A stretch of 64,000 nt of DNA from Clostridium ljungdahlii DSM 13528 (GTDB taxonomy: Bacteria > Bacillota > Clostridia > Clostridiales > Clostridiaceae): positions 3,162,001 through 3,226,000 of the forward strand of contig NC_014328.1 in assembly GCF_000143685.1 (NCBI RefSeq). Reading direction: 5' to 3'. Positions within the stretch are counted from its first letter, which is position 1. Each line of letters opens with the position of its first letter. The notes under the pieces are model-generated. The model saw only the letters and a list, made by a program, of their open reading frames with translations. It was not told the origin of the DNA and did not search any database. The position numbers and the translations under genes were made by a program. Shown here in pieces: positions 9,781 through 62,257 of the stretch.

Positions 9781-9926
9781 TTTATCCGATCGCTACCATT
9801 GCTAATACCCACATCTTCTTCAAAGTGGGGAATAAACACTGCTATGCGCCTGGATAAGTTCTTCTAAGGTTCAGATGGAGAAAAAGTATTCCTTATAAGC
9901 AAACTCCACCTGAACCTAAGAATCAC
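9781..9926 (-). repeat. Modular multi-hairpin intergenic repeat, copy A
   Basis: The copy begins TTTATCCGATCGCTACC and ends at AAGAATCAC. It contains an outer stem TTATCC/GGATAA around a short loop, then a second stem (GGTTCAGATGGAG/CTCCACCTGAACC) with CTTATAAG in its loop. The same modules recur in the copies at about 10955, 46907 and 62007. Its edge overlaps the next gene's end: the last codons and stop of the neighbouring esterase lie within the repeat. Confidence 0.85.
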
Positions 9927-10887
9927 TTGATTTAATCATTGGTATCTTAGGAATTGGACCATATGTCCTATCTTTAACTCCCATAATATATTTATCCATA
10001 AACCTAAGAACTTTGTACATATTTTCATCAGTTCTAAAGGCATTATCACCATGACCAGCCCCTTCAAGCAAATCAATGTGTACATTTTCATCTCCACAAA
10101 TCTTTATATACTTATTAAAGAACTCTATTGCTTGAAGATATGGTACTACTTTATCAGATGTACCCTGTTGAATTAACATTGGGGGCATATTCTTTCTCAT
10201 CTGATAAATTGGAGATGCTGAAATATATTTATCTTTGTTTTCTTCCATGCTGCATCCCATTAGACGATCTGCAACACCATCATCTTGACACTTATAGGTT
10301 TCTCCTTCTCTAACAAGCTGTCTTTTATGATTTTCTGTATTAACAAAATCAAAAACTCCAAACCATGTTGCTACAGCTTGTACATCACTAGAATATTCTG
10401 AATTACCCATTGATAAATCTTCATACTCAGGGCGTCCATTTGTGACCCCCAGCATCGCAGCAAGATGACCTCCTGCTGAACTGCCTAACACTGCAATCTT
10501 ATCTGTTTTTATATTATACTTAGCAGCATTTGCTCTTAAAAACCTTACAGCTGCCTTACAATCATATATTTGTGAAGGCCACTTTGCATCACCACTTAAT
10601 CTGTAATTAATAGTTGCAACAGCATATCCTTCAAAAGCTAACTGAATTGCTGACCTTGTATGCACATTTCTCTTATCTCCAAAGAACCATGCACCTCCAT
10701 GAATATTAATAACTACTGGAAATGGCCCTTCTCCTTCATTTGGAATAATTATATCCATTTTCTGATGTTTACTTTCATTGGCATATGGAATATCTAAGTA
10801 AGTTTTTTTAAAAACCTTTTCTACATCTAACATTATTAATGCCTCATTTGATACTTCCACGCCAATTCCATCATTATTATTCAACAT
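9916..10887 (-). CDS. Alpha/beta-hydrolase, BD-FAE/esterase type
   Basis: This 323-residue hydrolase has an intact oxyanion motif NIHGGAWFFGD, nucleophile GSSAGGH near residue 140, acid in GTSDKVVP and catalytic His in GAGHGD. These features match feruloyl-esterase-like and kynurenine-formamidase-like alpha/beta-hydrolases. There is no signal peptide, so it acts on imported substrates. The AGGAGGAG site is seven bases before the ATG. Hairpin repeats of the same family flank it on both sides, and the 3' repeat supplies its final residues and stop. With the permeases and dehydroquinase nearby, hydrolysis of a quinate or hydroxycinnamate ester is a reasonable guess. Confidence 0.85.
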   Translation of the reverse strand: MLNNNDGIGVEVSNEALIMLDVEKVFKKTYLDIPYANESKHQKMDIIIPNEGEGPFPVVINIHGGAWFFGDKRNVHTRSAIQLAFEGYAVATINYRLSGDAKWPSQIYDCKAAVRFLRANAAKYNIKTDKIAVLGSSAGGHLAAMLGVTNGRPEYEDLSMGNSEYSSDVQAVATWFGVFDFVNTENHKRQLVREGETYKCQDDGVADRLMGCSMEENKDKYISASPIYQMRKNMPPMLIQQGTSDKVVPYLQAIEFFNKYIKICGDENVHIDLLEGAGHGDNAFRTDENMYKVLRFMDKYIMGVKDRTYGPIPKIPMIKSSDS

Positions 10888-10954
10888 AACAATCTCCTCC
10901 TAATTGTAGTAATATTTTTATTGTATACTTATCGCAGCAAATAAACAGAGTTCT

Positions 10955-11128
10955 TTGTTTCAGGTGGAGTTTTTTCTCCATCTGAAACTTAGAAATCGTT
11001 ATCCAGGGGCGTAGCAACCGTTATCCCCCACTTTATAAGAAAAGCAGATATCCCAAATCTTTGATTTGGTGATAGTCGCTTTCGCTGTGTGCGATGGGGG
11101 TATTACGGATGGTAGCCATCGGATAAAT
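10955..11128 (+). repeat. Modular multi-hairpin intergenic repeat, copy B
   Basis: In plus orientation this copy has a short version of the TTTCAGGTGGAG/CTCCATCTGAAA stem. The outer TTATCC/GGATAA stem follows, with a loop carrying the cassette AAGCAGATATCCCAAATC...GATTTGGTGATAGTCGCTTT. It lies between two minus-strand genes, so it opposes their transcription. Confidence 0.85.
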
Positions 11129-11202
11129 ATTACAAAATATAATCGTCGCTTAATAATTAAAGCTTGGCAACAAATTACAAACGTTATCATTAAGCTTTAT
11201 AC

Positions 11203-12513
11203 TTATTTAGATTCTGAAGAACCTGCTACCATATTTTTCGGTAGCATTAGGGTAGACAACCCTCCTATTACAAGCATAGCTGTTAAAAAGTACATTCCAG
11301 CACTTGATGATCCAGTTAGTGTAATAAAATAACCTACTGCATATGGTCCAACAAATGAACCTAACCCCATAGCAGCAGCCATCAAACCTCTTGTTGGTCC
11401 ATCAAGCTCTTTTACCAATACAAGAGATGGTATTGAATAGTAACTCGGCATATGCCCCTGTACAAATATACTGACAAGACATAATAATCCAATTTTAATT
11501 ACTGGGTTTAGTCCTAATGGCAAACTCGCTATTACCAAAAATACAGCAAACATAATAAGTGGTAAACCTGTAGTAAGTCTCCTGCTCTTTATCTTAGTTG
11601 CAAGATAAGTCCACAGCCAAAGCCCAATTACCGTAAATATGTTTGGTACTATGGATATAAAACCTACATTTAAAATATTGGTTTTTGTAATAGCTTTAAT
11701 CATAGTAGGCATCCAAATTGTATATCCAAATTGGCCAATATTTACAGTAAAACCTACAATACATAAACACCATACATATTTGTTACGCAGTAGAAGCCCT
11801 AAAGGCAACTTTTCACTTTTTACTTCAACATCCCCTGCTACTTTTTTAGCCTCTTCACGTTCTTGCTGTATAGTTGTTTCTATGTAATCTCTTTCTTCTT
11901 TACTCAACCATTTTGCCTGTTCAGGTCTGTCAAATATAAGAAATTGCCATAAAACAAAACCTACTAAACTTAATACACCAAGTATGATAAATAAATTTCT
12001 CCATCCATAAAATTGTATGAGAGCTCCTCCAATAGGTCCCATAGAAACTGCTGCTATTGAAATAGCTGTAAAATAAGTTGAATTTGCCCTATTTCGTTCC
12101 CCATGTTTATCTGGAAACCAAAATGTAAATATAGTAGTTATTGCTGGAGAGAATGCACCTTCAAAAAATCCAATAATAAATCTAACTACCACTAGCTGCC
12201 ATCCATTTTGAACGAATGCAGTAAGTATAGTAAATACACTCCATCCAACAATACAAAATGAAACAAATTTTTTAACTTTTCCTTTTTGAGCCATCTGCCC
12301 CGCTGGTACAGAAAGAAACAATATGCCGATTGAAAATACCCCTGCTACTAAACCTGCCATTGTAGAATTTAACGCAAGCCCTTTCTGAAGACCTCCTGGC
12401 AACGCTATGCTTATAATATTTCGGTCTATAAAATAGAAAAAAGTTGTAATAAAACATACTGGCATAATATACAGCCATCTTGCTCCAGGTATTTTTTTTG
12501 TTGAAGTTTCCAT
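11203..12513 (-). CDS. MFS transporter, anion:cation symporter (ACS) type
   Basis: This 436-residue permease has about 12 membrane helices and the usual central cytoplasmic loop (near 200-230, EERDYIETTIQQEREEAKK). The N-terminal MPVCFITTFFYFIDRNIISIA and the motif GFFEGAFSPAITTIFTFWFP are typical of the ACS family, which imports organic anions such as hexuronates, phthalate and other carboxylates by proton symport. Its neighbours suggest a quinate, shikimate or hydroxycinnamate-type substrate, but specificity cannot be read from sequence. A GGAGG-type site precedes the ATG. Confidence 0.88.
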   Translation of the reverse strand: METSTKKIPGARWLYIMPVCFITTFFYFIDRNIISIALPGGLQKGLALNSTMAGLVAGVFSIGILFLSVPAGQMAQKGKVKKFVSFCIVGWSVFTILTAFVQNGWQLVVVRFIIGFFEGAFSPAITTIFTFWFPDKHGERNRANSTYFTAISIAAVSMGPIGGALIQFYGWRNLFIILGVLSLVGFVLWQFLIFDRPEQAKWLSKEERDYIETTIQQEREEAKKVAGDVEVKSEKLPLGLLLRNKYVWCLCIVGFTVNIGQFGYTIWMPTMIKAITKTNILNVGFISIVPNIFTVIGLWLWTYLATKIKSRRLTTGLPLIMFAVFLVIASLPLGLNPVIKIGLLCLVSIFVQGHMPSYYSIPSLVLVKELDGPTRGLMAAAMGLGSFVGPYAVGYFITLTGSSSAGMYFLTAMLVIGGLSTLMLPKNMVAGSSESK

Positions 12514-12854
12514 TGATATATTCCTCCTTTATAAAAAATTATTTAATTTAACTATTGATTTAACATAATTTTAAAATTAATATACAGTCTGTACCAATAA
12601 CCATAATACTCACTTAACATCCAAACATTTAAAAAACCATGTAAACCACCTTTCTTTAGTTGTTTTTCTCTAAACTATTAGTGTCATATTATCGCATTGT
12701 TATTCCTCCATCCTTCATTAAATTTATTTAAATTAATTTTAACTTTCGCAATTAAAGTTTTAAAAATTTTCAAACAATTATTTTTTTAAATAAATGTGAT
12801 TTAATTTCATGTATTATAATAACTGTAATTGAACTTATTTATTAGACTCTATTC
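12514..12854. other. Intergenic region between two MFS genes; no gene seen
   Basis: About 340 bases of AT-rich DNA. I see no open frame with a ribosome binding site, no clear terminator and no copy of the repeat family. It may contain a promoter for the downstream MFS gene. Confidence 0.4.
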
Positions 12855-14054
12855 CTATTGTTCTATTGCATATTTTGCATATTGCCTATTTACAAATACT
12901 GAAAGTAAGACTCCTATAATAGTGATTACAGCATTGAATAATACAACATATTTTGGCCCATTTGCGCCACCTGATTTTGTTATAACACTTGCAATATTTA
13001 AAATAACATAGTTTGCTATACTAGATGCAATCATGACTATAGAAGTAATCTTACCTTTATTTGCTGGGAACATTGCATTTGCTGTAGATGTGACCAACTG
13101 AAGCACTCCACCTGCTGCTGTAAATCCAATTACAAATCCACCTATTAAACAAATAGTTGGTGTCTGTATAAAATATATAATTATAAGCATAATTGTAGAA
13201 ATTAAAGGATATAGAACAAGTACCCTAACTGGTTTAAGAAATCCTTTTACAAGAGCTGCTGTTATTAATACAGCAAGCATTGATCCTACTGCATAGTATG
13301 ATTGAATTTGTCCCAGGTTAGCAAGTCCATATAACTTTCCTAATTCTTGGTTGCAATTTAACCATAACTGGAATGTAGAAGTGCATGTAAAACCTATACA
13401 AATTAATGCAATACTAGTCACTGTAAATTTCATCCTTTTTTCTTTAGGTTTACCCTTGGCATTATTATTCATTGGTGGGAAAGGCATAGTTGCAATCAAA
13501 ATACCATCTATAACAAGTAAAATAGCCGTTACAATAAAGATTGTTTTATACGACATATGGCTTGCTGAAACAAAACCTATCCCAAATGGAAGCAAAAGTT
13601 GTCCTAATGATATAGAAAACTTTGTAAACATATTGGCAGCATCACCTGAATCTACAAAAATCTCCAAACATGATGGAGTGATACATGTATCCAAAAACGA
13701 GTTAGCTGCACCACCGATTAGTGCAAATATATACGCAACATACATATTTGGTGCTATTATAATACCTACAAAATATGCGATATAAAAAACTATACCAATT
13801 AATCCAGAGACCCTTCTTCCAAGCTTGTCCGAAACAGGTCCAGCAAAAGGATATCCAATAAGACGTCCTAATCCAAGTGCGGCAATAACAGCAAGTACTA
13901 CACTTACATCAAAAGTACCATTAGCTAATGTTTTCGCACCCCATACACCCGCAAAGTTTTGCTTGTACTGTCCTAAAATTGATACTCCAATACCATGTAT
14001 AAAATAGGCTAAATATAATGCCAAAGCCGTCGGATAATATTTTTTATTATTCAT
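12855..14054 (-). CDS. MFS transporter
   Basis: This 399-residue permease has about 12 predicted helices. The loop-2 motif GPVSDKLGRRVSGLIG near residue 75 is the canonical MFS G-x3-D-x2-GRR signature. It is a different subfamily from the other permease of this island. Its position between that gene and the flavoprotein, all on one strand, suggests it imports or exports an intermediate of the same pathway. Shikimate-cluster MFS proteins of Listeria are a plausible comparison, recalled rather than checked. Substrate unknown. Confidence 0.85.
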   Translation of the reverse strand: MNNKKYYPTALALYLAYFIHGIGVSILGQYKQNFAGVWGAKTLANGTFDVSVVLAVIAALGLGRLIGYPFAGPVSDKLGRRVSGLIGIVFYIAYFVGIIIAPNMYVAYIFALIGGAANSFLDTCITPSCLEIFVDSGDAANMFTKFSISLGQLLLPFGIGFVSASHMSYKTIFIVTAILLVIDGILIATMPFPPMNNNAKGKPKEKRMKFTVTSIALICIGFTCTSTFQLWLNCNQELGKLYGLANLGQIQSYYAVGSMLAVLITAALVKGFLKPVRVLVLYPLISTIMLIIIYFIQTPTICLIGGFVIGFTAAGGVLQLVTSTANAMFPANKGKITSIVMIASSIANYVILNIASVITKSGGANGPKYVVLFNAVITIIGVLLSVFVNRQYAKYAIEQ

Positions 14055-14186
14055 TTACTTTCTCCTTTCATTCTCTCAAGGAAAGGTTATTTCTTAATGT
14101 ATTCATCTATTTAATGCATATAAATCTATCATCTTGGTAATTTTTACTTTATTGTTAATTTCTTAACCTTTTACCTCTAATAGTTA

Positions 14187-14207
14187 GGTTGGACACAAAA
14201 TCCAACC
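14187..14207 (-). repeat. Short hairpin between flavoprotein and MFS genes
   Basis: Arms GGTTGGA/TCCAACC enclose a seven-base loop and have no U-run. It may be a processing site or a weak terminator that lets MFS expression differ from the upstream genes. Confidence 0.35.
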
Positions 14208-14298
14208 CAACTTAAAGCCTTTACGAAAAAATTTAAGTGCATATATTAAAAAACTATTTAAAATATAAGCCTCCTAAAACTGCTTCAACCTTCTGTTA

Positions 14299-16221
14299 TC
14301 ATATTTTAAGTGCTACATCTAATGCTTCTCTTGTTGCATCTATTGCTCTACGTGCTCTTGTTGCATCACCAACAACATAAGTTTCTTTTATAACTTTTTT
14401 AACTTCTTCACTTAATGGATCATAGTTACGTGATCCCATAGCAAGAACAACAGAGTCAAATCCTTCTAACTTGTATTCATTATTATCTGCTAGTGTGTAT
14501 GAAACTCCACCTTTAAAAAACTTTGCAACTTTAGCTCCAGTAACAGTCCTAATTTTGTATTTATCAAAGTCCTTCATCAAAAATTTACGGTGCTCTGAAA
14601 TTACATCAGCTCCAACTTCATCACGAAGCTCAATAACAGTAACATCGTGGCCTAATTCAGCTAAGAAATCAGCAACTTCACATCCAACCATTCCACCACC
14701 TACAACAAGAACATTTTTGCCACAGGAATCTTTTCCGTCAAGAAGGTTAACTGCATGAATTAATCCAGATTCATTAATTCCTGGTATAGGTAATATAAGT
14801 GGTGTTGCTCCGGTAGCTAGAACTACTGCATCCGGTTTCTCTTCAGTTATAAGTTCAGGAGTTACTTTTGTATTTAAACGAACTTTTACACCATACTTTT
14901 TACATTTAGTAATATAACTGCGTATTAAATTTGTAATATCGCCTTTTCCTGGAGGATAAGCTGCTAAACGCATTTGTCCTCCAAGTGTGTCAGTTGCTTC
15001 AAATAATGTTACATCATGTCCTCTATTAGCAGATATCCATGCTGCAAGCATACCGCCAACTCCACCGCCCACAACTACTACTTTTTTACTAGTATCTGCT
15101 TTCTTAAGTTCAGCTTCTCTTCCAAGCAGCGGATTAACAAGACAAGTTATTGGCTTTCCTTGATACATGTTACAAACACATCCTTGAAGGCAAGCAATAC
15201 ATGGACTTAATTCATCCAAACGTCCAGCTGCAGCTTTATTAGGTGTTTCTGGATCAGCTAGACTCTGACGTCCAAATGCTACCAAATCACATCTTCCTTC
15301 ACGAACTAATAATTCTGCATAATATGGTTCTGTAAAACGTCCTACAGCAATAACAGGAATATTTACCGCTTTTTTAATTTCTGTAACTAATTCGGCATTA
15401 AATCCTCCATGTACAAGCGTAGGTGCCCACATATACTCATCATGAAGATGTATCGCACGTGAAACATTTATAGCATCTGCTCCACATTCCTCTAAATAAG
15501 CAGCAACTGCTGCACTGTCGTGAACATCTAACCCTCCATCCATCTCATCTGAACTGTTTATACGACAAATAATTGCCATAGAATGTCCAACTTTTTTAAG
15601 TATATTTTCAATAATAAGACGGGATAACCTCATTCTATTTTGAAAACATCCGCCAAACTCATCCACACGCTTATTTGTTCTTGGAGAAATAAAACTGCTA
15701 ACCAAATAGCCGTGTGCACAGTGTACTTCAACTGCATCAGCTCCTGCTTTTTTTGCACGTACTGCTGCATCTCCATATATCTCTATTAATTCATAAATTT
15801 CTTTGTTTGTCATAGCTATAGGTATATCACGACCTACTGCTGCTGGAATTGCAGAGGCAGCTTTTAAAGGATACCCAGCAGCTTTTGCATTTCCTTCAGC
15901 TCCAGCATGTTGAAGTTGAATAGATATCTTTGCACCAGCCTCATGACATGCATCTATAACACGTTTAAAGCTTTCTATAGTACTATCATCATATAAGCAG
16001 GGTTTACGAATTCCCCCCTTAGCTTTCTTATCAACAACAGTAGCCTCAAAAGTAATTAATCCAAAACCGCCGCAAGCACGAGCACTATAATATGCCAAAG
16101 ACTTATCACTCATAGACCCATCTGTATTTGCAAAATTATTTCCCATAGGCGAAACTACAAAACGATTTGGAACTGTTATAGGACCAATTTTTATTGGTGT
16201 AAACATAGATTTAAATATCAT
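14299..16221 (-). CDS. NADH:flavin oxidoreductase / 2,4-dienoyl-CoA reductase-like enoate reductase
   Basis: This is a three-domain enzyme of about 640 residues. An OYE-type FMN TIM barrel comes first (IKIGPITVPNRFVVSPMG; catalytic-site segment EVHCAHGYLVSSFISP). A 4Fe-4S motif follows (CIACLQGCVCNMYQGKPITC). Last come two nucleotide-binding folds (VVVVGGGVGGMLAA for FAD, VLVVGGGMVGCEVADF for NAD(P)H). The family reduces activated C=C bonds of enoates or dienoyl-CoAs. I chose the ATG eleven bases after AAAGGA; upstream ATGs have poor spacing. It sits two codons from the sugar-isomerase-like gene. Its substrate may be an unsaturated hydroaromatic or hydroxycinnamate acid. Confidence 0.88.
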   Translation of the reverse strand: MIFKSMFTPIKIGPITVPNRFVVSPMGNNFANTDGSMSDKSLAYYSARACGGFGLITFEATVVDKKAKGGIRKPCLYDDSTIESFKRVIDACHEAGAKISIQLQHAGAEGNAKAAGYPLKAASAIPAAVGRDIPIAMTNKEIYELIEIYGDAAVRAKKAGADAVEVHCAHGYLVSSFISPRTNKRVDEFGGCFQNRMRLSRLIIENILKKVGHSMAIICRINSSDEMDGGLDVHDSAAVAAYLEECGADAINVSRAIHLHDEYMWAPTLVHGGFNAELVTEIKKAVNIPVIAVGRFTEPYYAELLVREGRCDLVAFGRQSLADPETPNKAAAGRLDELSPCIACLQGCVCNMYQGKPITCLVNPLLGREAELKKADTSKKVVVVGGGVGGMLAAWISANRGHDVTLFEATDTLGGQMRLAAYPPGKGDITNLIRSYITKCKKYGVKVRLNTKVTPELITEEKPDAVVLATGATPLILPIPGINESGLIHAVNLLDGKDSCGKNVLVVGGGMVGCEVADFLAELGHDVTVIELRDEVGADVISEHRKFLMKDFDKYKIRTVTGAKVAKFFKGGVSYTLADNNEYKLEGFDSVVLAMGSRNYDPLSEEVKKVIKETYVVGDATRARRAIDATREALDVALKI

Positions 16222-16263
16222 AAGATAAATCATCCTTTCACTTTTTAAGATTGATTGCACTTA

Positions 16264-17136
16264 CTATTTTGTCTTTGGAGAAAGCTCCGGCCAAGCTTTG
16301 TCAAGCACTTTTTTAGCATTGTCATATGTAAATTTAGCTGCCTCAGCAACACCTTTTGATAAAATAGCATCGCTTATTACTTCAACACCAATACATACAG
16401 GTTTGATTCCCTTTTCTTTGATCATACGAACAAAGCCTTCTGTTGCATTAATTCCAGTACCTGGTGCAAGTCTGTCATGCATTGATTCATCTCTTAATAT
16501 GGATTTTGCATAAGGTCTTTCATAAACATCATTAATCTGTATAGATACAATCTTATCAGCTGGAATACCTTCTAATAATTCAATATCATTTTCTTGATTT
16601 GCTCTTACCCAATGCCATGTATCCAAGATAAGTTTGGCATTATCACAACCAGCGCCTTTAACTACTTCCCAACCTTTTTTGATATCTGGAATACCACTGT
16701 ATGGCATAGGCTCAACACCAATAATATATTTGCCTGCTCTTTGACATAATTCTCTTAACTTCTGTGCGGTATGTTCTACACTATAAGTTTCCATTAAACC
16801 AATGTTTATATGTTGAACACCAAATAATTCACACATATGGAAACATATTTGCTCTTTGTATTTTTGCTCATAAGAACGATTATCTTCAGCCCAAAGTGTA
16901 ATATATTCAACTTCAGTAACCTTCATATCATATTTTTTGAGAATACACAAAATATCAGAATCAAATAAACCTTCGTTTAACGCATCCACATATGTTTCGG
17001 CACGAAGACCTATTCCGTCATAACCCGCTTCTTTTGCAGCTTTAACTCTTTCTTCAAATTTACATTGATCACCTAATGTCCATGAACTTACTGTGATGGG
17101 TGGCTTGCAAGTACTTTTCTTGCATTCATTAGTCAT
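16264..17136 (-). CDS. Xylose isomerase-like TIM barrel (candidate 3-dehydroshikimate dehydratase)
   Basis: This 290-residue protein has the fold of sugar-phosphate isomerases/AP endonuclease family 2. Likely metal ligands are Glu in GVEPMPY, Asp and His in ILDTWHW, and Glu in IGVEVI. The same superfamily contains the 3-dehydroshikimate dehydratases of the AsbF/QuiC type, which make protocatechuate. Presence in one operon with shikimate dehydrogenase, dehydroquinase and OYE-like genes mirrors the Listeria shikimate/quinate clusters, so that role is the leading hypothesis. A sugar or inositol-type isomerase is the alternative. Start: ATG after GAAAGAGGAATG. Confidence 0.7.
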   Translation of the reverse strand: MTNECKKSTCKPPITVSSWTLGDQCKFEERVKAAKEAGYDGIGLRAETYVDALNEGLFDSDILCILKKYDMKVTEVEYITLWAEDNRSYEQKYKEQICFHMCELFGVQHINIGLMETYSVEHTAQKLRELCQRAGKYIIGVEPMPYSGIPDIKKGWEVVKGAGCDNAKLILDTWHWVRANQENDIELLEGIPADKIVSIQINDVYERPYAKSILRDESMHDRLAPGTGINATEGFVRMIKEKGIKPVCIGVEVISDAILSKGVAEAAKFTYDNAKKVLDKAWPELSPKTK

Positions 17137-17197
17137 GATACATTCCTCTTTCCATCAAAAATTTTGTTATTAAATATGCTCAATTATCATAAAACCT

Positions 17198-39644: not shown

Positions 39645-39925
39645 AAAAACTCCATCCTAAAAACTAGGACGGAGATATCCGCGGTACCACCTAAATTATA
39701 CTTTAAAAAAGTATCTCTTTTTCAGACACTAACATGTCCTATCCATTATAACGTATGGAATACGTTAACCACTACTCTTCGCTCTGCGAATTTCAATTTA
39801 CTCCTCTTAGGTCCATTCACAACACACAATAGTATTGAGATCCCACCATTCTCAACTCTCTGTAACTTTAATAATATTGCTACTATTCCTCGTCAAAGGA
39901 TTTATTTTTAAATTAAGTATATGTT
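39645..39925 (-). promoter_or_regulatory. T-box riboswitch, tryptophan specifier
   Basis: The minus strand contains the T-box sequence AATTTAGGTGGTACCGCGG (about 39680-39698). A terminator follows: CTCCGTCCT and AGGATGGAG arms at 39650-39674, then seven T. In stem I the specifier loop reads GAA-TGG-ACC, placing the UGG codon at 39813-39815. T-boxes bind uncharged tRNA with the matching anticodon and block termination. Confidence 0.93.
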
Positions 39926-46906: not shown

Positions 46907-47105
46907 TTTATCCGATTGCTACTATTGCTAACCCCATCTTTTTCAAAATGGGTGATAAGCACTGCTACGCACCTGGATAAGTTCTTCCCCTAAAGGATAA
47001 CGTATTCTAAGTGCTAAAGACACTAAGAATACTGTTAATAAGGTTCAAGATGGAGAAAAAGTATTCCTTATAAGCAAACTCCACCTGAACCTAAGAATCA
47101 CTTGA
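46907..47105 (-). repeat. Modular multi-hairpin intergenic repeat, copy C
   Basis: Same orientation as copy A. The TTATCC/GGATAA outer stem has a short loop. A third stem follows (module GTATTCT...AGTG/CACT..AGAATAC, missing from copy A), then the GGTTCAAGATGGAG/CTCCACCTGAACC stem. No gene abuts it, and it lies in a 720-base gap. Confidence 0.85.
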
Positions 47106-47173
47106 TAATTGATCTTACATATGGAAGTAAAAGTATACTAAAATATACATGATGAATGCAAATATTCTAACAA

Positions 47174-49601: not shown

Positions 49602-49689
49602 TCTAATCCACCTCCCAGTTATCAGCAACATATGTTCATATGTTTATGTTTTAAGTATAATTTAATTTGCTCTTCTTGTCAACAAAATT

Positions 49690-49735
49690 TATCTGATGCC
49701 TACCTAGCGTAAACTCCCACTTCATTTAATAATTA
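49690..49735 (-). repeat. Fragment of the modular repeat family, copy D
   Basis: TTATCTGATGCCTACC followed by CTAGCGTAAACTCCCAC matches only the first 45 bases of copy E. The partner AGATAA half and the other modules are missing, so it is a truncated relic. Confidence 0.6.
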
Positions 49736-49744
49736 ACGCAAATA

Positions 49745-49783
49745 AGGCATATAAAAAATAAACTAGTTATTTTTTATATGCCT
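49745..49783 (-). terminator. Terminator after the beta-propeller gene
   Basis: A 17-bp stem starting AGGCATATAAAAAATAA has a five-base loop and a T-run within the arm, immediately after the stop codon. Confidence 0.7.
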
Positions 49784-50561: not shown

Positions 50562-50660
50562 AGGCACCACCTCATTATATGTTTTCTCTATTTTATTTTG
50601 CACCTTTTTTACCATATATATTCTTATTTATAACATTTTTTCAATTTTTAATATATTCAT

Positions 50661-50872
50661 TTATCTGATGGCTACCTACTGTAACACTCCCACTCCTATC
50701 AAAGTGGTAGCTAACAGTAGCTACGCCCCTAGATAATTCATCTAAACTTAGTGGAAAAAACGACTATCACCAAATCAAAGATTTGGGATATCTGCTTGCA
50801 CACAGCGAAAGCGACTATCACCAAATCAAAGATTTGGGATATCTGCTTTTCCCACTAAGTAAGATTCATTGA
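50661..50872 (-). repeat. Modular multi-hairpin intergenic repeat, copy E (tandem cassette)
   Basis: The outer stem here is TTATCT/AGATAA, where other copies have TTATCC/GGATAA, a compensatory change. A second stem CTTAGTGG/CCCACTAAG encloses two tandem cassettes (50761-50797 and 50811-50847) of CGACTATCACCAAATC-AAA-GATTTGGGATATCTGCTT, joined by GCACACAGCGAAAG. The end overlaps the neighbouring gene's stop codon. Confidence 0.8.
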
Positions 50873-51534
50873 TATATTTCTACTGTAGTTTTAAGTCCAA
50901 CATATTCTTTTAATATATCCATATCTTTATTAGATAGGGCAATACATCCATAAGTCCAGTCGTATTTAGAACCACCACCATGTATTCCTATTTCCCCTCC
51001 AAGTGAAGTATGCCAAGGCGGCTGTTCTTTATTATTTATAGCCCATTCTATTCTGTCATAATTGATTTTACCTATGACTTTCTTATCTAAAGCTTCTTTA
51101 GCATCATCTATATTTGGGTAACTTATTCCAAAAAAATAATCATATTTACTTTTAGGATTTATATAACATATGTAATAGGTTCCTTCTGGAGTTTTTAAAT
51201 CTCCTTCCTTTTCTTTTTTACCTGAGGGAACTCTTCCAAGTCCAACTTTAAACCTTCCAATCAATTCATTATCTCCATAAAGTTCCATTGCTCTTTTTCC
51301 CTTATAAATTTTTATTGAAGTCTTTTCCGGTTTTTGCTTTGGAGCTTCAAAAAACAACTTTCCTTTCTCCGCCTGTACGTCTTTTTCAGTTACATTATTT
51401 TTAGCTGAAATATTTTTAAATTCATTTTCCCTAATATATCTTTTTATAGATAACCCAGAAATAGTCGCTATTATAGCTATGCCAAAAATCAGAAATACTA
51501 ATGGGAAAATTACGTGCTTCTTTTTCATAATCAT
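50866..51534 (-). CDS. L,D-transpeptidase (YkuD domain)
   Basis: This protein of about 222 residues has an N-terminal membrane anchor (about 5-25) and an extracellular YkuD domain. The catalytic signature is IGIHGGGSKYDWTYGCIALS with His, the S/T-x-G-C-type Cys and the following Ser. The family makes 3-3 peptidoglycan cross-links or attaches proteins to the wall, using a Cys nucleophile. An AAAGG site precedes the start. It is followed downstream by repeat copy E, which includes its last bases. Confidence 0.9.
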   Translation of the reverse strand: MIMKKKHVIFPLVFLIFGIAIIATISGLSIKRYIRENEFKNISAKNNVTEKDVQAEKGKLFFEAPKQKPEKTSIKIYKGKRAMELYGDNELIGRFKVGLGRVPSGKKEKEGDLKTPEGTYYICYINPKSKYDYFFGISYPNIDDAKEALDKKVIGKINYDRIEWAINNKEQPPWHTSLGGEIGIHGGGSKYDWTYGCIALSNKDMDILKEYVGLKTTVEIYQ

Positions 51535-54714: not shown

Positions 54715-54735
54715 AATATCACCTCCATAAGTAAT

Positions 54736-55818
54736 TTAATCTTCCATTAAATTGAGTAGTGAAAGTGCTGCAGCTGCTTCTATTACTGGTACCGCCCTAG
54801 GTACAATGCAGGGATCATGTCTTCCTTTTATCTCTAAAAGTGCATCTTTCCTTTTTTCAATATCTACAGTTTTTTGAGCTTTTGATATAGATGGAGTAGG
54901 TTTTATACAAGTTCTAAATATAAGAGGCATTCCATCTGTAATTCCTCCTAAAATTCCTCCATTATTATTAGTGTAAGTTTTTATAACATTATTGTCTGAT
55001 ATAAAATATTCATCATTTGCTTCAGAGCCCTTCATTTTTGATATATCAAAACCTTCTCCAAATTCTACCCCTTTTACTGCGGGTATAGAAAATAAAAGCC
55101 CCGAGATAGTACTTTCTACGGACTCAAAGAAAGGATCTCCTATACCTGGTGGCAAATTTATAACTCCAGTTTCTACAATTCCTCCTAAAGAGTCTCCTTC
55201 TTCTTTTAGCTTTAAAATATACTGCTGCATTTTTTCGCCACAGTTTTCATCTAAAACTGGAAATTTACTTTCAGAAAGTTTTTCTAAACTACTTTTTTCT
55301 ATAGAAGTGAATTTAAAGGATTTTGGGTCTTCAATTGTACCTATACTCTTTATATGACTACCTATAAATATGCCTTTTTCTTCTAATATTTTTCTGCATA
55401 AAGCCCCTGCAAAAACTATAGGTGCCGTAAGTCTACCTGAAAAGTGTCCACCGCCCCTATAATCATTAAATCCTCTATACTTTATTTTTCCCGTAAAATC
55501 AGCATGGCCGGGTCTTAAAAGCGAAGCTGTTTTTTCATAGTCTTTAGAATGAGTATTGCTGTTTTGTATAACTGCACAAAGAGGAGTTCCCGTTGCTCTT
55601 CCATTAAAATATCCGCTTAAAATTTCAAATTCATCCTGCTCTTTTCTAGGAGTGGAAAGTTTACTAAAGCCTGGTGCTCTCCTTTTCATCTGCTTTCTTA
55701 TGTATTCTAAATCAATTTCAGTTCCAGCTTTTAGTCCATCTATTACAATGCCTATGGCTTTTCCGTGAGATTCTCCAAAAATTGATAACTTTATTTTATT
55801 CCCCCACATTCCACTCAT
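54736..55818 (-). CDS. aroC: Chorismate synthase
   Basis: This 360-residue FMN-dependent enzyme converts EPSP to chorismate. It shows [39 protein letters not shown] and a C-terminal region with [13 protein letters not shown]. The ATG lies after GGGAGGTAATATAG and overlaps the end of aroA by 23 bases, suggesting coupling. No obvious deviation from the family. Confidence 0.96.
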
Positions 55819-57076
55819 CTATATTACCTCCCAATCGTCTAAAATCTTGCCAAAAACCAGGATATGATTTTTTAACATATTCAGCTTCTTTCATTATCAT
55901 AGGATTTACACATTTTGAAGATACAACAGCCAGTGCCATTGCTATTCTGTGATCTCTCCAACTTGTAACTTTTCCTCCCTTGAGCCTTTCCTTACCATTT
56001 ATAATAAGTCCATCTTCTCTTTCTTTTACATCTGCTCCAATTTTATTTAATTCTGTAGATATAGCCTTGAGTCTATCTGATTCTTTAATTCTAAGTCTAG
56101 CTGCATTTGTAATTTCGGTGGTACCACTGCTTACAGATGCCAGTGCCGCAAGTACTGGTACTAAGTCAGGACACTGGGATGCATCTATGTACGTTCCATG
56201 AGTTTCAGAAGGATTAACTTTTAAAGTATCACCTTTTTCTTCAATTTCAACTCCCATATCTTTTAATATCCGTATTACAGCCTTATCTCCCTGTAGAGAA
56301 TTCATATTGAGACTAGAGCATATAATTCCATCTCCAAGCGCTCCTGCAGTCATCCAAAAAGCTGCCTGAGAAAAGTCTCCTTCTATACTACAGTTATTTT
56401 TTTTATAAGTCTGCTTTCCATTAATTAGAAATTCCCTATAGTCTTTTTTATCCACATAGACTCCAAACCTTTCCAGCATATCCAGTGTAATATCTACATA
56501 AGATTTAGATTCAAGTTCTGTGGTAACTACTATTTTTGAATCCCCATCTAAAAGAGGCAGCGCAAACAAAAGACCGCTTATAAATTGAGAACTTATATTT
56601 CCCTTTACTCTATATTCCCCAGGCTTTAACTTTCCATTTATAGTTAAAGGTAATTTACCTTGGAAATTTCTATAAAAAATTTTTTGCTTATCAAATATAT
56701 CATAGTAAACATCTAAAGGTCTTTCTATTAATTTATCTTCTCCCGTAAAAGTTACTTTTTCTCCTAAAGTAGCAGCTATAGGTATTAAAAATCTAATAGT
56801 AGAACCAGATTTAAAGCAGTGTATATTTGAATTTTTCATTCTAATAACAGAATTTCCTGTTACATTTAAAGTATGTTTATCTCTTTTAATATCTACTCCC
56901 AAAGCTTCCAAAGCACTACAAGTAGCTTCTATATCTTCTGAAAAATCTACATTTTTTATATTGCTTTCCCCTTGGGCTAAGGCAGAACATATGAGTGCCC
57001 TATGACATACACTTTTAGAAGGAGGAACTTGTATTTGCCCTTTAAGTTTAGTAGGCTTTATAGATACATATTTCAT
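55796..57076 (-). CDS. aroA: 3-phosphoshikimate 1-carboxyvinyltransferase (EPSP synthase)
   Basis: This protein of 426 residues forms EPSP from shikimate 3-phosphate and PEP. Visible motifs are [30 protein letters not shown] and the late [13 protein letters not shown] start at the ATG eight bases after AAAAGGAG, six codons inside the longest frame. The SGSTIR segment replaces the more common GNAGTAMR of class I enzymes, suggesting the class II type. It follows aroB directly. Confidence 0.94.
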
Positions 57077-57094
57077 AAACTGCTCCTTTTCCAT

Positions 57095-58195
57095 TTATTT
57101 GATTAGATTTTCAGGAAATAAAAAATTAGCTGCTTCAGACAATTTAGTATTTCTTATTTTGCTCTTTCCTGCTTCTTCAACCATTATTAAATTAATTTCA
57201 TTTTTATCTGAAGATTTTTTATCTAGTGCTATGGTGTCTACTAAAACATTTTTATCCACACCCTGTATATAAACCGGAAGCCCATACTTTTTTAAAATAT
57301 TTACCATATAAGAATAAGTACCCTCTTTAGTAATAGAAAGCTCTTCCGTTCTTCCTGTTATATATGCCATACCAATGGAAACTGCTTCTCCATGACTATA
57401 TTTACTGTAATTATAATATCTTTCAACGGCATGCCCCAACGTGTGTCCAAAATTCAGTAGCATCCTATTCCCTAAATCTTTTTCGTCTTCTTCTACCAAT
57501 TGCTTTTTTATGCTGCAGCATTTATATATTATATTTTCTATATTGTTCAAAGCCTCTTCTTTGCTTTTATAGGAATTTAGATCTTCTAAAATAGTTTTAT
57601 CTTTTATAAAACCATACTTTATAACTTCAGCCATTCCATCACTAAAAAATCTATCACTTAAAGTTTTAAGCACCTCTGGATCTATAAATACAGCATCCGG
57701 GTGATAAAAATTCCCCACTAGATTTTTTCCCCAAGGAAGGTCCACAGCTACCTTCCCACCTATACTGCTGTCTACTTGTGCCAAAAGTGATGTTGGTATT
57801 TGAACATAACTTATCCCTCTCAAATAAGTAGCTGCTGCAAAGCCTGATAAATCTCCAACTACCCCTCCTCCAAGAGAAACTATTACATCCTTTCTCTTTA
57901 TCTTCAATTCACACAAATTTTCATATATTTTCTTTAGCATATCCAAACTTTTGCTTTTTTCTCCCGGTTCTATAGATATGACATTTACTTTAAATCCATT
58001 ATCCAAAAAAGATTGCTTCAATTCTTTCATATATAATCGTTCAACATTTTTATCCGTAATTACAACTAAAGTTCTCCCCTCATAAACTTGCCGTAATTTT
58101 TTTCCTATGGAAGTTAAAATTCCTCTTTCCATATAAATTTTATATTGTTTCTTTTTAAGATTTATATTTATAGAAATTGTATTCATCAAAATCAC
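57095..58195 (-). CDS. aroB: 3-dehydroquinate synthase
   Basis: This 366-residue NAD- and metal-dependent enzyme converts DAHP to 3-dehydroquinate. It shows VSLGGGVVGDLSGFAAATYL, IPTSLLAQVDSSIGGKVAV, DGMAEVIKYG and LNFGHTLGHAVERYYN. GTG is a likely start (AAGGATA upstream), with an ATG three codons later as an alternative. The product needs a dehydroquinase that this operon does not supply. Confidence 0.95.
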   Translation of the reverse strand: MILMNTISININLKKKQYKIYMERGILTSIGKKLRQVYEGRTLVVITDKNVERLYMKELKQSFLDNGFKVNVISIEPGEKSKSLDMLKKIYENLCELKIKRKDVIVSLGGGVVGDLSGFAAATYLRGISYVQIPTSLLAQVDSSIGGKVAVDLPWGKNLVGNFYHPDAVFIDPEVLKTLSDRFFSDGMAEVIKYGFIKDKTILEDLNSYKSKEEALNNIENIIYKCCSIKKQLVEEDEKDLGNRMLLNFGHTLGHAVERYYNYSKYSHGEAVSIGMAYITGRTEELSITKEGTYSYMVNILKKYGLPVYIQGVDKNVLVDTIALDKKSSDKNEINLIMVEEAGKSKIRNTKLSEAANFLFPENLIK

Positions 58196-58200
58196 TATCC

Positions 58201-59067
58201 TTATCCTTTAACTAATTCTTTTCTACTTGAGGATGCTTTTTCAAAAATATTTTTTATGGAATCTACATCTTTAGATATTATAGCTTTTTTTAATAAATTA
58301 ATACTTTCTTCAAACTTTTCTATTTCTTCCACTAATATATCCGAATTCATAGTAAATAGTTCAGTCCATAGTGAAGTGTTAATTTGGGCTACTCTAGTTG
58401 CATCTCTAAAGCTTCCACCTGTAAACGACTTTATGTTTTCTTCATTCTGATCCTGTGAATTCATAAGAGATACAGCTATAACATGAGGAAGTTGACTTGT
58501 AAAAGTAATTACTCTATCGTGCCTTTCGGGACTTATACAAGTTACATTGCTGCATCCTATTTTTCTAGCCATTTTACCTATTAAATTAATACCTCTAGAA
58601 GTATTTTTAGCTGTAGGTGTTATTATATAATTTGCATCTTTAAAAATATCTTTAGAAGCTCCTGCAATACCTTTAAATTCATTTCCTGCCATAGGATGTC
58701 CTGGTACAAACTCCAAGCGCTCTGGCAAGAATGAATTTATTTCACTCACCACACACTGTTTTATACCTGATGTATCCGTTATAATAGCCCCACTTTTTAA
58801 ATATTTAAAATTGTCCTTTACAAATTTAACTGTATCCTTAGGATAAAGAGCAATTATTATAAGATCAATTTCCTTTAAGAAACTTCCTCCTCTCTCGTAG
58901 CCTCTATCTATAATCTCCATATTTAAAGCACTTTCAAGTGTATTTTTATCATTGTCTATTCCAATAACCTGTTCAGTGTTTAGTGGCCTTAGGGCCATGG
59001 CATAAGAACCGCCAATAAGCCCCATTCCCACAATTGCTACCTTAAGTTTAAAATCAGAATCATCCAA
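58201..59067 (-). CDS. tyrA: Prephenate dehydrogenase
   Basis: This 288-residue NAD(P)-binding enzyme makes 4-hydroxyphenylpyruvate. The Rossmann loop AIVGMGLIGGSYAMAL, the segment DTSGIKQCVVSEI, the catalytic His region VPGHPMAGNEFKG and FTSQLPHVIAVSL are all seen. There is no ACT domain. TTG, eight bases after AGGGGG, is the most plausible start. The gene lies second in the aro operon. Confidence 0.93.
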   Translation of the reverse strand: MDDSDFKLKVAIVGMGLIGGSYAMALRPLNTEQVIGIDNDKNTLESALNMEIIDRGYERGGSFLKEIDLIIIALYPKDTVKFVKDNFKYLKSGAIITDTSGIKQCVVSEINSFLPERLEFVPGHPMAGNEFKGIAGASKDIFKDANYIITPTAKNTSRGINLIGKMARKIGCSNVTCISPERHDRVITFTSQLPHVIAVSLMNSQDQNEENIKSFTGGSFRDATRVAQINTSLWTELFTMNSDILVEEIEKFEESINLLKKAIISKDVDSIKNIFEKASSSRKELVKG

Positions 59068-59093
59068 TCCATATTCCCCCTGTCCTAGAATTT

Positions 59094-60128
59094 TTACACA
59101 TTTACAGTATCATATGCTTTATGAATTGTTTTTCCTGGAATTTTGCTTATATCGTTCATAAGCTGTTCGAATACTTTTGGTTTTATGGATTGCTGTCCAT
59201 CACATTTTGCATTAGCAGGATCATTGTGTACTTCTATCATAAGTCCGTCAGCCCCTACTGCCACTGCTGCCTTAGCTAATGGCTCTACCATCCACCAAAG
59301 TCCTGCAGCATGACTTGGATCCACTATTACTGGAAGATGACTTAATCTTTTTATGGCAGGAATAGCACTTAAGTCTAAAGTATTTCTTGTATAAGTTTCA
59401 AAAGTCCTTATTCCTCTCTCACAAAGTATTACATTTTCATTTCCTTCAGACATTATATATTCTGCGGACATCAAAAGCTCCTGAATAGTAGCAGAAAGTC
59501 CTCTTTTTAAAAGAATTGGCTTATTTGTTTTACCTAGCTGTTTTAAAAGCTCGAAGTTTTGCATATTTCTTGCTCCTACCTGTATTACATCCACATCCTC
59601 TACAAATTTGTCTATCATATCCGCAGACATAATTTCAGTTACTATAGGAAGCCCTGTTTCCTGCCTTGCTATTTTTAAAAGGTCTAATCCTCTAGTTCTG
59701 AGACCTTGAAAGCTGTAAGGCGATGTTCTTGGCTTAAATGCCCCACCTCTTAAAAATTTAGCACCACTTTTTTTTACATCTTGTGCAATTTTTACAATTT
59801 GCTCTTCACTTTCAACAGAACACGGTCCTGCTATAACAGCCAGCTCATCCCCACCTATAGAAGCATTTTTTACTTTTATTACAGTGTCATCCGGATGAAA
59901 TAACCTATTGGACAATTTGTAAGGCTGCTGTACCTTCTCAACATTTTCCACAAATTCATTAGCTCTTATTTTATCTGCATCCACTTTTGTAGTATCTCCA
60001 ACAAGTCCTAATATAGAACATTCTTTTCCATTTATTACATTCACTGTTACGTCATTCTCACTTTCAATTTTTTGTTTAAGCATGTTTATCTCTTCCTGTG
60101 TGGTTTGTGGTCTCATAATAACTATCAA
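59094..60128 (-). CDS. aroF: DAHP synthase, AroF/AroA type with N-terminal ferredoxin-like domain
   Basis: This 344-residue first enzyme condenses PEP and erythrose 4-phosphate. An N-terminal domain of about 80 residues (MIVIMRPQTTQEEINMLKQK) is the ferredoxin-like regulatory unit found in Thermotoga-type enzymes. The barrel has AVIAGPCSVESEEQI, FLRGGAFKPRTSPYSFQG and VDPSHAAGLWW. TTG is the start, eight bases after AGGAGGT. It is the first operon gene, behind the putative attenuator. Allosteric control by an aromatic amino acid is likely for this domain layout. Confidence 0.94.
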   Translation of the reverse strand: MIVIMRPQTTQEEINMLKQKIESENDVTVNVINGKECSILGLVGDTTKVDADKIRANEFVENVEKVQQPYKLSNRLFHPDDTVIKVKNASIGGDELAVIAGPCSVESEEQIVKIAQDVKKSGAKFLRGGAFKPRTSPYSFQGLRTRGLDLLKIARQETGLPIVTEIMSADMIDKFVEDVDVIQVGARNMQNFELLKQLGKTNKPILLKRGLSATIQELLMSAEYIMSEGNENVILCERGIRTFETYTRNTLDLSAIPAIKRLSHLPVIVDPSHAAGLWWMVEPLAKAAVAVGADGLMIEVHNDPANAKCDGQQSIKPKVFEQLMNDISKIPGKTIHKAYDTVNV

Positions 60129-60212
60129 TTTCTAGTACCTCCTAAAATTTTATATCTTAACTTCTATGCTAGCTCTAGAAGTTATTTACCTTGAAATTTT
60201 AATTAATAATAT

Positions 60213-60243
60213 AAAAAAGGCAGGGCTCCTAATGAGCTCTGCC
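60213..60243 (-). terminator. Terminator between leader ORF and aroF (candidate attenuator)
   Basis: On the minus strand GGCAGAGCTC and GAGCCCTGCC arms enclose ATTAG, followed by six T. It is about 85 bases before the aroF start, with no strong promoter between, so aro operon transcripts from the upstream promoter must read through it. Confidence 0.75.
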
Positions 60244-60284
60244 TAAATTAATCAAATACATTTTGTGTACGTAAAATTATTCAA

Positions 60285-60443
60285 TCATGTATCTACAATT
60301 ATATTACTCATTAGAAAAGGATTCAATTTTTTTGAGAAGCAAAAGTAACTAGCGCTAAAATAAAAATAGCCCCAGCTAAAAGTAAAGTTAAAATAATATT
60401 TTTCACTTATTGCTTCTATTTCCTTTCTAATGATGTTTTTCAT
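60285..60443 (-). CDS. Aromatic-rich 52-codon leader ORF upstream of aroF
   Basis: The ATG follows GGAGGGG at seven bases. The peptide is MKNIIRKEIEAISEK, then YYFNFTFSWGYFYFSAS, then YFCF and a polar tail. Thirteen of the 21 residues from position 16 to 36 are Tyr, Phe or Trp. It lies between a strong promoter and a terminator, upstream of the aromatic operon, as expected for a leader peptide of ribosome-mediated attenuation. A caveat: a shorter GTG frame inside it (60323-60406) encodes a 27-residue membrane-helix-like peptide (KNIILTLLLAGAIFILALVT), which would produce Phe/Tyr codons in this frame by chance. That GTG has only a distant ribosome site. Confidence 0.55.
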   Translation of the reverse strand: MKNIIRKEIEAISEKYYFNFTFSWGYFYFSASYFCFSKKLNPFLMSNIIVDT

Positions 60444-60511
60444 TAAATTTCCCCTCCATTGCAAATAATGCCACTAATTTTATAAATTAATTCTTAATCT
60501 ATTTGTTCTCA

Positions 60512-60539
60512 ATTATAGCATGTTTATTCCTTATGTCAA
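60512..60539 (-). promoter_or_regulatory. Strong sigma-A promoter for leader and aro operon
   Basis: Consensus TTGACA and TATAAT are 16 bases apart on the minus strand. The start point would be about 60 bases before the leader ORF. Confidence 0.8.
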
Positions 60540-60737
60540 CAGTAAGTTTCCAATTTTATTTATTTTTATCGTATAAAATATGAAAACTTTGCTAAAACTA
60601 ATGGAAAATTATTTTAAACCATAGTATAATTAAATTAAACATTTTTTTAATATTATTAAAAATAATTATATTATATAAAATTTATGTGAATTTAAAATGT
60701 TATTTTTAAATATACTATAATTTCAGGAGGAAAGAGC

Positions 60738-62012
60738 ATGAACACGTCTAAAAAACTGATCTTTGCTTTTTTTATGTCAGCATCTCTTATGAATAGTAAG
60801 GGCTTGGTAAGTACTGTATATGCTGCTGATGTACCAAATATGAGCAGTAGTGCTTATACTGCTGTTGGAAATATATTTGCAAAATCAGGATACACCGGGC
60901 AATGTACCTGGTTTACTTATGGAAGAGTACTTGAAAAATTAGGAATTGCACTGCCATCACAATTTTACGGTAATGCAGTAGACTGGTGGTATGCAAATGC
61001 CAGTTCAAACGTATACCCTTATGGCTCAGAACCTAAAGCAAATTCCATAGTTGTATGGGGTGGCGGTCCACATGGATATGGACACGTTGGCTTTGTGGAA
61101 GAAGTAAGTGGAGATACTGTATATTTTAACGAAGGAAACTTCAATATAAGAGGAAATTATGACGGAAGTGAAAAAACGCTTTCAAAAGAGGCTATAAAAA
61201 ATAGAGGAAATTTGTACCTTAAAGGATACATATATGTAGGCGATGGCAGAAAGTCTATTCCAGCTAGCAATCCTTCGCCTAGCAATAACAGTAGTTCAAA
61301 TTCAGCCCCTGTTACTAATATTTCCAAAACAGGAATTGTTAACATTTCAAATAGCAGTTCCACATTGAATGTAAGGAATGGGGCAGCTACGTCCTTTGGC
61401 GTTATAGGAGGATTAAAGAAAGGACAATCCGTTGCTATAGTAGGATCAGTTGGAAGTTGGTATAAAATTAAATATAATTCTTCTTACGGATATGTGAGCT
61501 CTTCTTTTATAAGTGCAAGCTCACAAGCTAGTCCTAGTAGTCAGCCTTCTTCTAATTCGGAAGCACAATATTTATCTCCAGCTTCTGCGAAATCAGGTTA
61601 TGTTAAGCTTAGTGACAGTTCATCATCTTTAAACTTAAGAACATCTCCAGGAGGTTCTGTAATAGGATCGCTTGCTAATGGTACTGCTGTAAATATATTA
61701 GGAACTAGTGGAAGTTGGTATAAAGTAACTGCAAACGGAAAGTCAGGATATGTTTCTTCTAGCTATATAAGTAATTCACAGTCCATAGTAGCAACTGCTG
61801 CAAGCGTTCAGTCTACAACTTTGAAAACTGGTACTGTAACATTAAGTAATAAGTCTTCAGTATTAAACTTACGAAGTAACCCTTGGACTGGTCGTATTGT
61901 ATCCACTCTATCTTCTGGAACCAAAGTAACCATAACAGGCACAGATGGGCGTTGGTATAAAGTAACTGTTGGTTCCTTAACAGGATATGTTCATTCAGAT
62001 TACATCAAGTGA
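60738..62012 (+). CDS. Secreted CHAP-domain peptidoglycan hydrolase with three SH3b domains
   Basis: In this 424-residue protein a signal peptide ends near ...TVYAADVP (about residue 30). The CHAP amidase/endopeptidase domain (about 45-150) has catalytic Cys in GQCTWFTYGR, His in GHVGFVEEV and a following VYFNEGNF. Three bacterial SH3 domains (about 197-258, 287-345, 362-424) each end in a GYVSSSFIS/GYVHSDYIK type segment and bind the wall. Ser/Asn-rich linkers join them. AGGAGG precedes the ATG. Repeat copy F starts at its stop codon. Confidence 0.92.
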   Translation: MNTSKKLIFAFFMSASLMNSKGLVSTVYAADVPNMSSSAYTAVGNIFAKSGYTGQCTWFTYGRVLEKLGIALPSQFYGNAVDWWYANASSNVYPYGSEPKANSIVVWGGGPHGYGHVGFVEEVSGDTVYFNEGNFNIRGNYDGSEKTLSKEAIKNRGNLYLKGYIYVGDGRKSIPASNPSPSNNSSSNSAPVTNISKTGIVNISNSSSTLNVRNGAATSFGVIGGLKKGQSVAIVGSVGSWYKIKYNSSYGYVSSSFISASSQASPSSQPSSNSEAQYLSPASAKSGYVKLSDSSSSLNLRTSPGGSVIGSLANGTAVNILGTSGSWYKVTANGKSGYVSSSYISNSQSIVATAASVQSTTLKTGTVTLSNKSSVLNLRSNPWTGRIVSTLSSGTKVTITGTDGRWYKVTVGSLTGYVHSDYIK

Positions 62013-62257
62013 TTCTTAGGTTCAGGTGGAGTTTTCTTATAAGGAATACCTTTTCTGCATCTGAACCTTATTAACAGTATTCTTAGTGTCTTTAGCACTT
62101 TAGAATACGTTATCCTTTAGGGGAAGAACTTATCCAGGCGCGTAGCAGTGCTTATCCCCCACTTTGAAGAAAAGCAGATATCCCAAATCTTTGATTTGGT
62201 GATAGTCGCTTTCACAGAGTGCGATGGGGGTGTTAGCAATGGTAGCGATCGGATAAA
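62007..62257 (+). repeat. Modular multi-hairpin intergenic repeat, copy F (fullest copy)
   Basis: It contains all modules in order: GGTTCAGGTGGAG/GCATCTGAACC stem, GTATTCTTAGTG/CACTTTAGAATAC stem, then the TTATCC/GGATAA outer stem whose loop carries the CCAAATC/GATTTGG cassette. It begins at the stop codon of the CHAP gene (AAGTGATTCTTAGG) in sense orientation, so it would be in that gene's 3' UTR. Confidence 0.88.

Follow-up and report, generated by a model that had tools for sequence, protein, structure and literature searches.

A modular family of two-hairpin mobile elements inserted behind TTTAT in Clostridium ljungdahlii

The stretch of 64,000 nt analysed here (the window) covers positions 3,162,001 to 3,226,000 of contig NC_014328.1 of Clostridium ljungdahlii DSM 13528, whose genome forms one contig of 4,630,065 bases (4.63 Mb). 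It contains five copies (A, B, C, E and F) and one fragment (D) of an intergenic repeat family, which a preliminary description of the sequence alone had presented as modular and multi-hairpin. The family is real and all six places were confirmed. It is mobile DNA and not an RNA gene, because its sites are present or absent between sister genomes of about 95% identity and the absence leaves a precise scar; mobility and the target TTTAT are near certain. We propose, with a probability of about 0.7, that these are non-autonomous elements of about 130-250 nt without a gene, which move as folded single-stranded DNA in a Y1-like manner, as IS200/IS605 elements do. The best label for them is that of an element resembling the palindrome-associated transposable elements (PATEs) of Haloquadratum walsbyi.

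Empty and filled sites in sister genomes

The two sister genomes used for comparison, G004 and G005, are 95.4% and 94.75% identical to the window and 94.7% identical to each other (aligned stretches of at least 1 kb). Copies A and B are filled in C. ljungdahlii and G004 and empty in G005. Copy C is filled in C. ljungdahlii and empty in G005, while in G004 TTTAT is followed by other sequence with another copy nearby, a site that was scored as not collinear. Copy E is filled in C. ljungdahlii alone and empty in both sisters, copy F is filled in all three genomes, and fragment D is decayed in all three. The window copies in G004 are accordingly three filled, one empty and one not collinear; conversely, four of the five G004 copies of this region are filled in C. 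ljungdahlii and one is not collinear.

A larger comparison with G005 covered the window plus 400 kb and 21 complete copies. Four had no collinear flanks, two were filled or otherwise occupied and 15 were empty (15 of the 17 collinear sites). The empty alleles hold TTTAT in 13 cases (one with a projected gap of 3 nt, not 5) and TTGAT and TCTAT in one case each. At the compared sites the element follows TTTAT immediately on its 3' side, its last bases are TTGAT or TTTAT, and the target is not duplicated any further. Since 13 of the 15 empty alleles hold one TTTAT, the element is delimited as CCGAT...(TTGAT or TTTAT), inserted 3' of TTTAT. Precise excision and the absence of any insertion leave an identical scar, and insertion is favoured because copy E is filled in only one of the three genomes.

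Empty sites had been proposed as a check in the preliminary description, which left the choice between a structured RNA, an element like a miniature inverted-repeat transposable element (MITE) and a recombination or termination module. Of these options the MITE-like one is borne out, through the presence and absence with a clean TTTAT scar. A classical MITE, with terminal inverted repeats and a target duplication, was rejected, since neither feature is present and the ends CCGAT and TTNAT are not inverted repeats.

Conserved fold, ends and a putative guide

The element is always written here on the strand beginning with TTTAT. With ^ for its limits, a copy reads TTTAT^CCGAT.G.CTAC - left hairpin - CTACG.CC.T GGATAA X - linker - right hairpin - AAGA.... 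X'TTNAT^. The limits of the copies were set from empty sites and end motifs; those given earlier had the right places and were a few bases short.

The fold of the left hairpin is conserved by paired changes. In an alignment of 24 rows, built by sequence and with the structure assigned by us from these same copies, 90.6% of 468 cells are paired and 13 of 20 pairs show double changes; substitutions that preserve the stems far outnumber those that disrupt them. The covariation score is 0.367 against 0.146 after shuffling (0 of 500 as high) and at most 0.132 in slid versions. Three strands fold 9-12 standard deviations below shuffles, two of the three being typed consensus-like sequences. The outer stem TTATCC/GGATAA is present in five of five copies as first described, and the paired substitution TTATCT/AGATAA remarked on in copy E recurs in the family: the fetched loci have CC/GG 133 times, CT/AG 21, CC/AG 4, CT/GG 2 and other combinations 4 times. 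The CT/AG loci form one subfamily and therefore represent one or few events. CTAC (GTAG on the opposite strand) stands at the hairpin feet in most of the 24 aligned rows and in the listed left types.

A covariance model of this hairpin (R1; 24 sequences, 76 positions, 20 pairs) gives six matches in the window. Copies A, B, C, E and F score 77.9, 72.1, 75.5, 89.7 and 70.9 bits, where A, C and E match by construction as they are among the 24 training hairpins; fragment D is matched weakly. The covariance search suggested earlier did find further copies: 47 matches in 955 kb of C. ljungdahlii and related DNA (two being the opposite strand of others) and at least 135 in the whole C. ljungdahlii genome at E<=0.01, a lower bound because only 150 of 3064 first-look candidates were scored. 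Because of these 135 matches and of folds far below shuffles, the repeats are not a product of chance. BLAST found a match in 23 of 59 genomes and R1 in 16 of 196 genomes drawn from the class, C. ljungdahlii being included in both counts; 11 of the 16 belong to other families, and the same layout was seen there. The complete copies of C. ljungdahlii are 127-249 nt long (n=41), which is too small to encode a transposase, and 0 of the 41 lie within an open reading frame of at least 80 aa.

The insertion point falls within the outer stem (TTTAT^CC), and the left target TTAT^CC is complementary to the internal GG.ATAA between the two hairpins that make up the element. In the fold, this ATAA serves to close the left hairpin and also occupies the 5' foot of the right one. 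The base after this putative guide and the base before the final TTNAT form a Watson-Crick pair in 135 of 139 elements (C-G 67, G-C 52, T-A 16, others 4). These 139 elements have a sound left end and come from a first list of 165, from which 17 rows with a doubtful left end and nine rows repeating the last 100 nt of another row were dropped. In the looser list of 165, 158 are complementary, compared with a mean of 63 and a maximum of 85 after shuffling. The right ends fall into three main families (GTTTAT, CTTGAT and ATTGAT) that are partly decoupled from the left subtype: left type CGCTACCATTGC is combined 21 times with G..CTTGAT and three times with C..GTTTAT. Among copies from other families of the class whose right end can be read, 13 have a C that faces the G preceding TTTAT; the right end is altered in L362 and lost in L353. 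In other genera of the family to which C. ljungdahlii belongs, C faces G in L348 and L365 and T faces G in L368, and L349 and L355 carry ATAAAG facing CTTTAT and CTTGAT, respectively.

Modules and loop cassettes

The preliminary description listed modules and named no mechanism. The left target site forms part of the outer stem; the remaining modules comprise alternative right ends and, nested in the element, a second hairpin element. The module with CTTATAAG is present in copies A, C and F and is confined to those three. The middle unit was correctly assigned to C and F and reads like an extra right end. Elsewhere in the genome, copy L050 comprises nothing but a right-end unit, which follows TTAAT. 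Two type-2 ends are found in L039, a palindrome, and L056/L074 is a hybrid of types 1 and 2.

The CCAAATC cassette, found in B, E and F as first reported and twice in E, is a second hairpin element of 51 nt lodged in the loops of the first. It is carried by 67 of the 139 sound elements, with one or two each (81 of 165 in the looser list). In the looser list 70 cassettes lie in the left hairpin loop and 16 in the right; 82 elements have forward marks alone, five have both marks (partly symmetric variants) and none has reverse marks alone. Common descent of the cassette within subfamilies may explain part of this orientation bias. Gain or loss is visible in two copies: A is without the cassette in C. 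ljungdahlii and with it in G004, and F has it in C. ljungdahlii and lacks it in both sisters. In the C. ljungdahlii stretches, a rule assigned 13 of 15 cassettes to element hairpins; the remaining two were judged by eye to lie in element-like hairpins. In C. simiarum, C. thailandense and Clostridium sp. CX1 the cassette is also found where no such element is present. A CCAAATC-type hairpin (AAGCGA.T..CACCAAATC..GATTTGG..CTGCTT) was seen alone or in tandem in other clostridia (L183, L196, L181, L106 and L107) and is an independent repeat family.

A different hairpin cassette (TTAGAACTC...GAGTTCT) was seen in the left hairpin of L041, near position 2090470 of the C. ljungdahlii contig (C1) and in some E-type copies, which may mean that a further kind of loop parasite exists. 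The sisters differ in additional small intergenic repeats as well, such as units around TTAATAATGAAAAATTAATAGTGAAGGATGATTTT (C. ljungdahlii C1:1640001-1960000 vs G005:C1). The window further holds a T-box leader (39662-39905, minus strand) and a cobalamin riboswitch (2810-2984, minus strand), which both pass the Rfam cut-off. Coordinates of the elements and their parts are given in Table 1.

Table 1. Elements, targets and modules in the window (positions counted from its first base).
Feature	Position	Strand	Evidence or remark
Copy A, target TTTAT	9781..9785	+	Single TTTAT in G005, element absent
Copy A, element CCGATC...CACTTGAT, right end type 1, without 51-nt cassette	9786..9931	+	Same insertion in G004, there with 51-nt cassette
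Copy A, putative guide GGATAA+G	9852..9858	+	Complementary to left TTATCC; one bulge against right-end CTTGAT, a pairing that is putative
Copy B, element CCGATG...CTCTGTTTAT, right end type 2; target TTTAT 11123-11127	10941..11122	-	Site empty in G005 (ATAAA), filled in G004
Copy B, 51-nt CCAAATC cassette in left-hairpin loop	11042..11092	-	Sequence; cassette gain/loss known in A and F
Copy C, element CCGATT...CACTTGAT with middle module; target TTTAT 46907-46911	46912..47106	+	Empty in G005
Copy C, middle module GGATAAC..hairpin..CTGTTAAT	46987..47039	+	Sequence; possibly an extra right end
Fragment D, decayed left hairpin	49688..49754	+	17.3 bits, E 0.02; decayed at same place in G004 and G005
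Copy E, element CTGATG...TTCATTGAT, right end type 3, left site/guide TTATCT/AGATAA; target TTTAT 50660-50664	50665..50873	+	Empty in G004 and G005
Copy E, two CCAAATC cassettes (41 nt, then 51 nt at 50798-50848) in right hairpin	50757..50848	+	Sequence
Copy F, element CCGATC...CACTTGAT with middle module and cassette; target TTTAT 62253-62257	62004..62252	-	Filled at same site in G004 and G005, without 51-nt cassette
Copy F, middle module	62070..62123	-	Sequence
Copy F, 51-nt CCAAATC cassette in left-hairpin loop	62172..62222	-	Not in orthologous copies of G004 and G005

Nature of the elements and the search for their mover

In IS200/IS605 elements, guides at the feet of hairpins select both the left-flanking motif and the terminal bases of the right end (PMC6006769). 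The present elements likewise insert 3' of a fixed short motif next to their left end, and their right end, which fits this scheme, closes in a similar motif; a putative guide stands at the right hairpin's 5' foot, and the hairpin tips resemble those of clostridial IS605 to some degree. They differ in that neither tnpA nor tnpB lies inside and the putative left guide is 3' of the left hairpin. We suggest that the ATAA guide would pair successively with TTAT of the left target and with the right terminus, as ATAAG with CTTgAT, ATAAC with GTTtAT and ATAAT with ATTgAT. A Y1 (HUH) transposase supplied in trans would then cut behind the left target and the right terminus, and the cut ends would join into a circle that inserts behind a new TTTAT. 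The alternative right-end units would produce the modular look, and the CCAAATC cassette would be a smaller hairpin element resident in the loops of the first.

Because tnpA is absent, we file the family as PATE-like and not as a member of IS200/IS605. The PATEs of H. walsbyi are described as lacking genes, inverted repeats and target duplication and as having palindromes close to their ends (PMC3119063). Palindromes near the ends, lack of terminal inverted repeats, precise empty sites and a non-coding length were all found here; the two also share the lack of target duplication, strain-specific insertions and heterogeneous copies (PMC3119063). The organisms are unrelated, however, and the likeness is one of description; the clostridial elements have two unlike hairpins, several alternative right ends and a visible complementarity between guide and site. 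The same source describes SMR-A short mobile repeats as small hairpin elements that invade near-terminal PATE palindromes without target duplication, and the CCAAATC cassette likewise sits in the hairpins of its host element (PMC3119063). SMR-A is about 110 bp long with prominent inverted repeats, whereas the cassette has 51 nt and in some clostridia also occurs outside elements. The earlier statement that no named family has this layout thus holds in that Rfam has no match, but the kind, a PATE with SMR-A insertions, has been described in Haloquadratum (PMC3119063). Clop-1 of C. perfringens and Clot-1 of C. tetani, of 93 and 74 nt, are comparable to the present family in being clostridial stem-loop repeats of intergenic DNA (PMC2267715). 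A description of the present family itself was not found in titles and abstracts of the literature searched, subscription papers being outside the scope.

Several observations weigh against a Y1-like mechanism. The C. ljungdahlii genome gives no match to PF01797 (Y1), though copies moved after the sisters split, and neither do G003, G015 and G025, which all carry many copies. Element ends stand at none of 50 inspected Y1 loci (30 as returned by the search and 20 chosen by place, from a longer list), except for an IS200-like remnant (L256) beside or inside a copy in G009. A typed, cassette-free query sequence had no match among 72,556 plasmids or among 50,697 phages. The left complementary ATAA lies 3' of the left hairpin and not 5' of its foot as in IS608. 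Because the elements fall into three right-end families, the agreement between guide and end amounts essentially to three concordant families, thus few independent events and not 135, and the search pattern favoured known right ends. The copies show only a slight preference in their orientation to replication (91 of 149, p 0.009), with gene direction as a confounder. Finally, of 17 G005 copies looked up in C. ljungdahlii, 11 had no collinear flanks in the fetched DNA, four were filled or otherwise occupied (two of these being one place twice) and two were empty, one without a clean scar.

PF01797 matches were found in 46 of the 59 genomes, C. ljungdahlii being counted in the 59, and both sisters keep IS200-type genes. 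Two possible sources were rejected: the single TnpB match in the C. ljungdahlii genome (C1:48233-48448, in a 506-aa open frame) shows no such ends by eye, and ten IS605 copies compared in G010 have the target TTTAAC and the right end TTCAC, which indicates another specificity. The hairpin tip resembles apical hairpins of clostridial IS605 ends (CCCA-CTTCT...AAGTGGG), where the model matches L210 with 22.6 bits and L215 with 22.0 bits (E 0.0011 and 0.0016 over 161 kb); these matches are weak and both ends are never fully matched. We regard this likeness as a lead, not as proof, because hairpins easily resemble one another. A group I intron, considered because the outer stem spans the insertion point, was discarded as Rfam gave no match and the ends disagree with the rules for such introns. 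Six pattern matches in IMG/VR contained no element by eye.

It is unlikely that the family is instead one of REP/BIME-like repeats (repetitive extragenic palindromes and bacterial interspersed mosaic elements) mobilised by a RAYT transposase (TnpA-REP), which would recognise GTAG plus hairpin on the strand opposite TTTAT, with GTAG at both feet. REPs are defined by GT[AG]G at the hairpin foot (PMC6006769), and this motif is found in our elements on the opposite strand, with CTAC kept at the left-hairpin feet in most aligned rows. High copy number, intergenic hairpins and the lack of copies within open reading frames are likewise REP-like, but the unit here has two hairpins and a fixed TTTAT target, and the genome has no Y1/RAYT match. 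REPs are not known to insert behind a fixed pentanucleotide. The long Y1 proteins of relatives that were inspected (about 307-338 aa) are flanked by other sequences, not by these repeats. These clostridial proteins (L239-L254) are unlike the short IS200 TnpA, and GGGGACGGTTCT-like sequences upstream of several of their genes are perhaps those genes' own REP-like repeats.

Somewhat less probable again is a mover outside Y1, another single-strand or hairpin-acting host enzyme that inserts the elements behind TTTAT. Such an enzyme would fit with 15 of 17 compared sites differing from G005 in a one-contig genome without a Y1 match; against this, transposases are easily lost, both sisters retain IS200-type genes, and the search of the C. 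ljungdahlii genome, which covered Y1 and TnpB alone, yielded no candidate enzyme. Least plausible by far is a structured RNA or a regulatory or termination module kept for a host function. Its strong covarying fold and intergenic position would suit it, but the fold constrains single-stranded DNA equally well, most compared sites are present or absent between the 95% identical genomes with a precise scar, and the elements stand in both orientations to genes (19 opposed, 10 along and 9 mixed among 38 copies with both neighbours called). In addition, a search of the whole window found no Rfam family above its gathering cut-off at the elements, and around A, B and F only chance-level matches.

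Returning to guided movement as folded single-stranded DNA, a bolder form of it seems improbable, if slightly less so than the REP/RAYT alternative: the guide would double as selector of the left and the right site in a lineage without a recognisable Y1, an unrecognised and perhaps host-encoded enzyme would carry out the guided single-strand insertion behind TTTAT, and the 51-nt loop parasite would be moved likewise.

The sequence alone of these elements' ends displays guide/target pairing of the kind described for IS200/IS605 ends, and the family offers a defined target, defined ends and a one-base guide rule open to testing. In one Haloquadratum strain, insertions are reported even though every IS200-type gene is described as broken (PMC3119063), and this puzzle of insertions despite broken transposases recurs here in culturable bacteria. 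In C. ljungdahlii and its acetogenic kin, the elements constitute a numerous and fast-turning share of the intergenic DNA.

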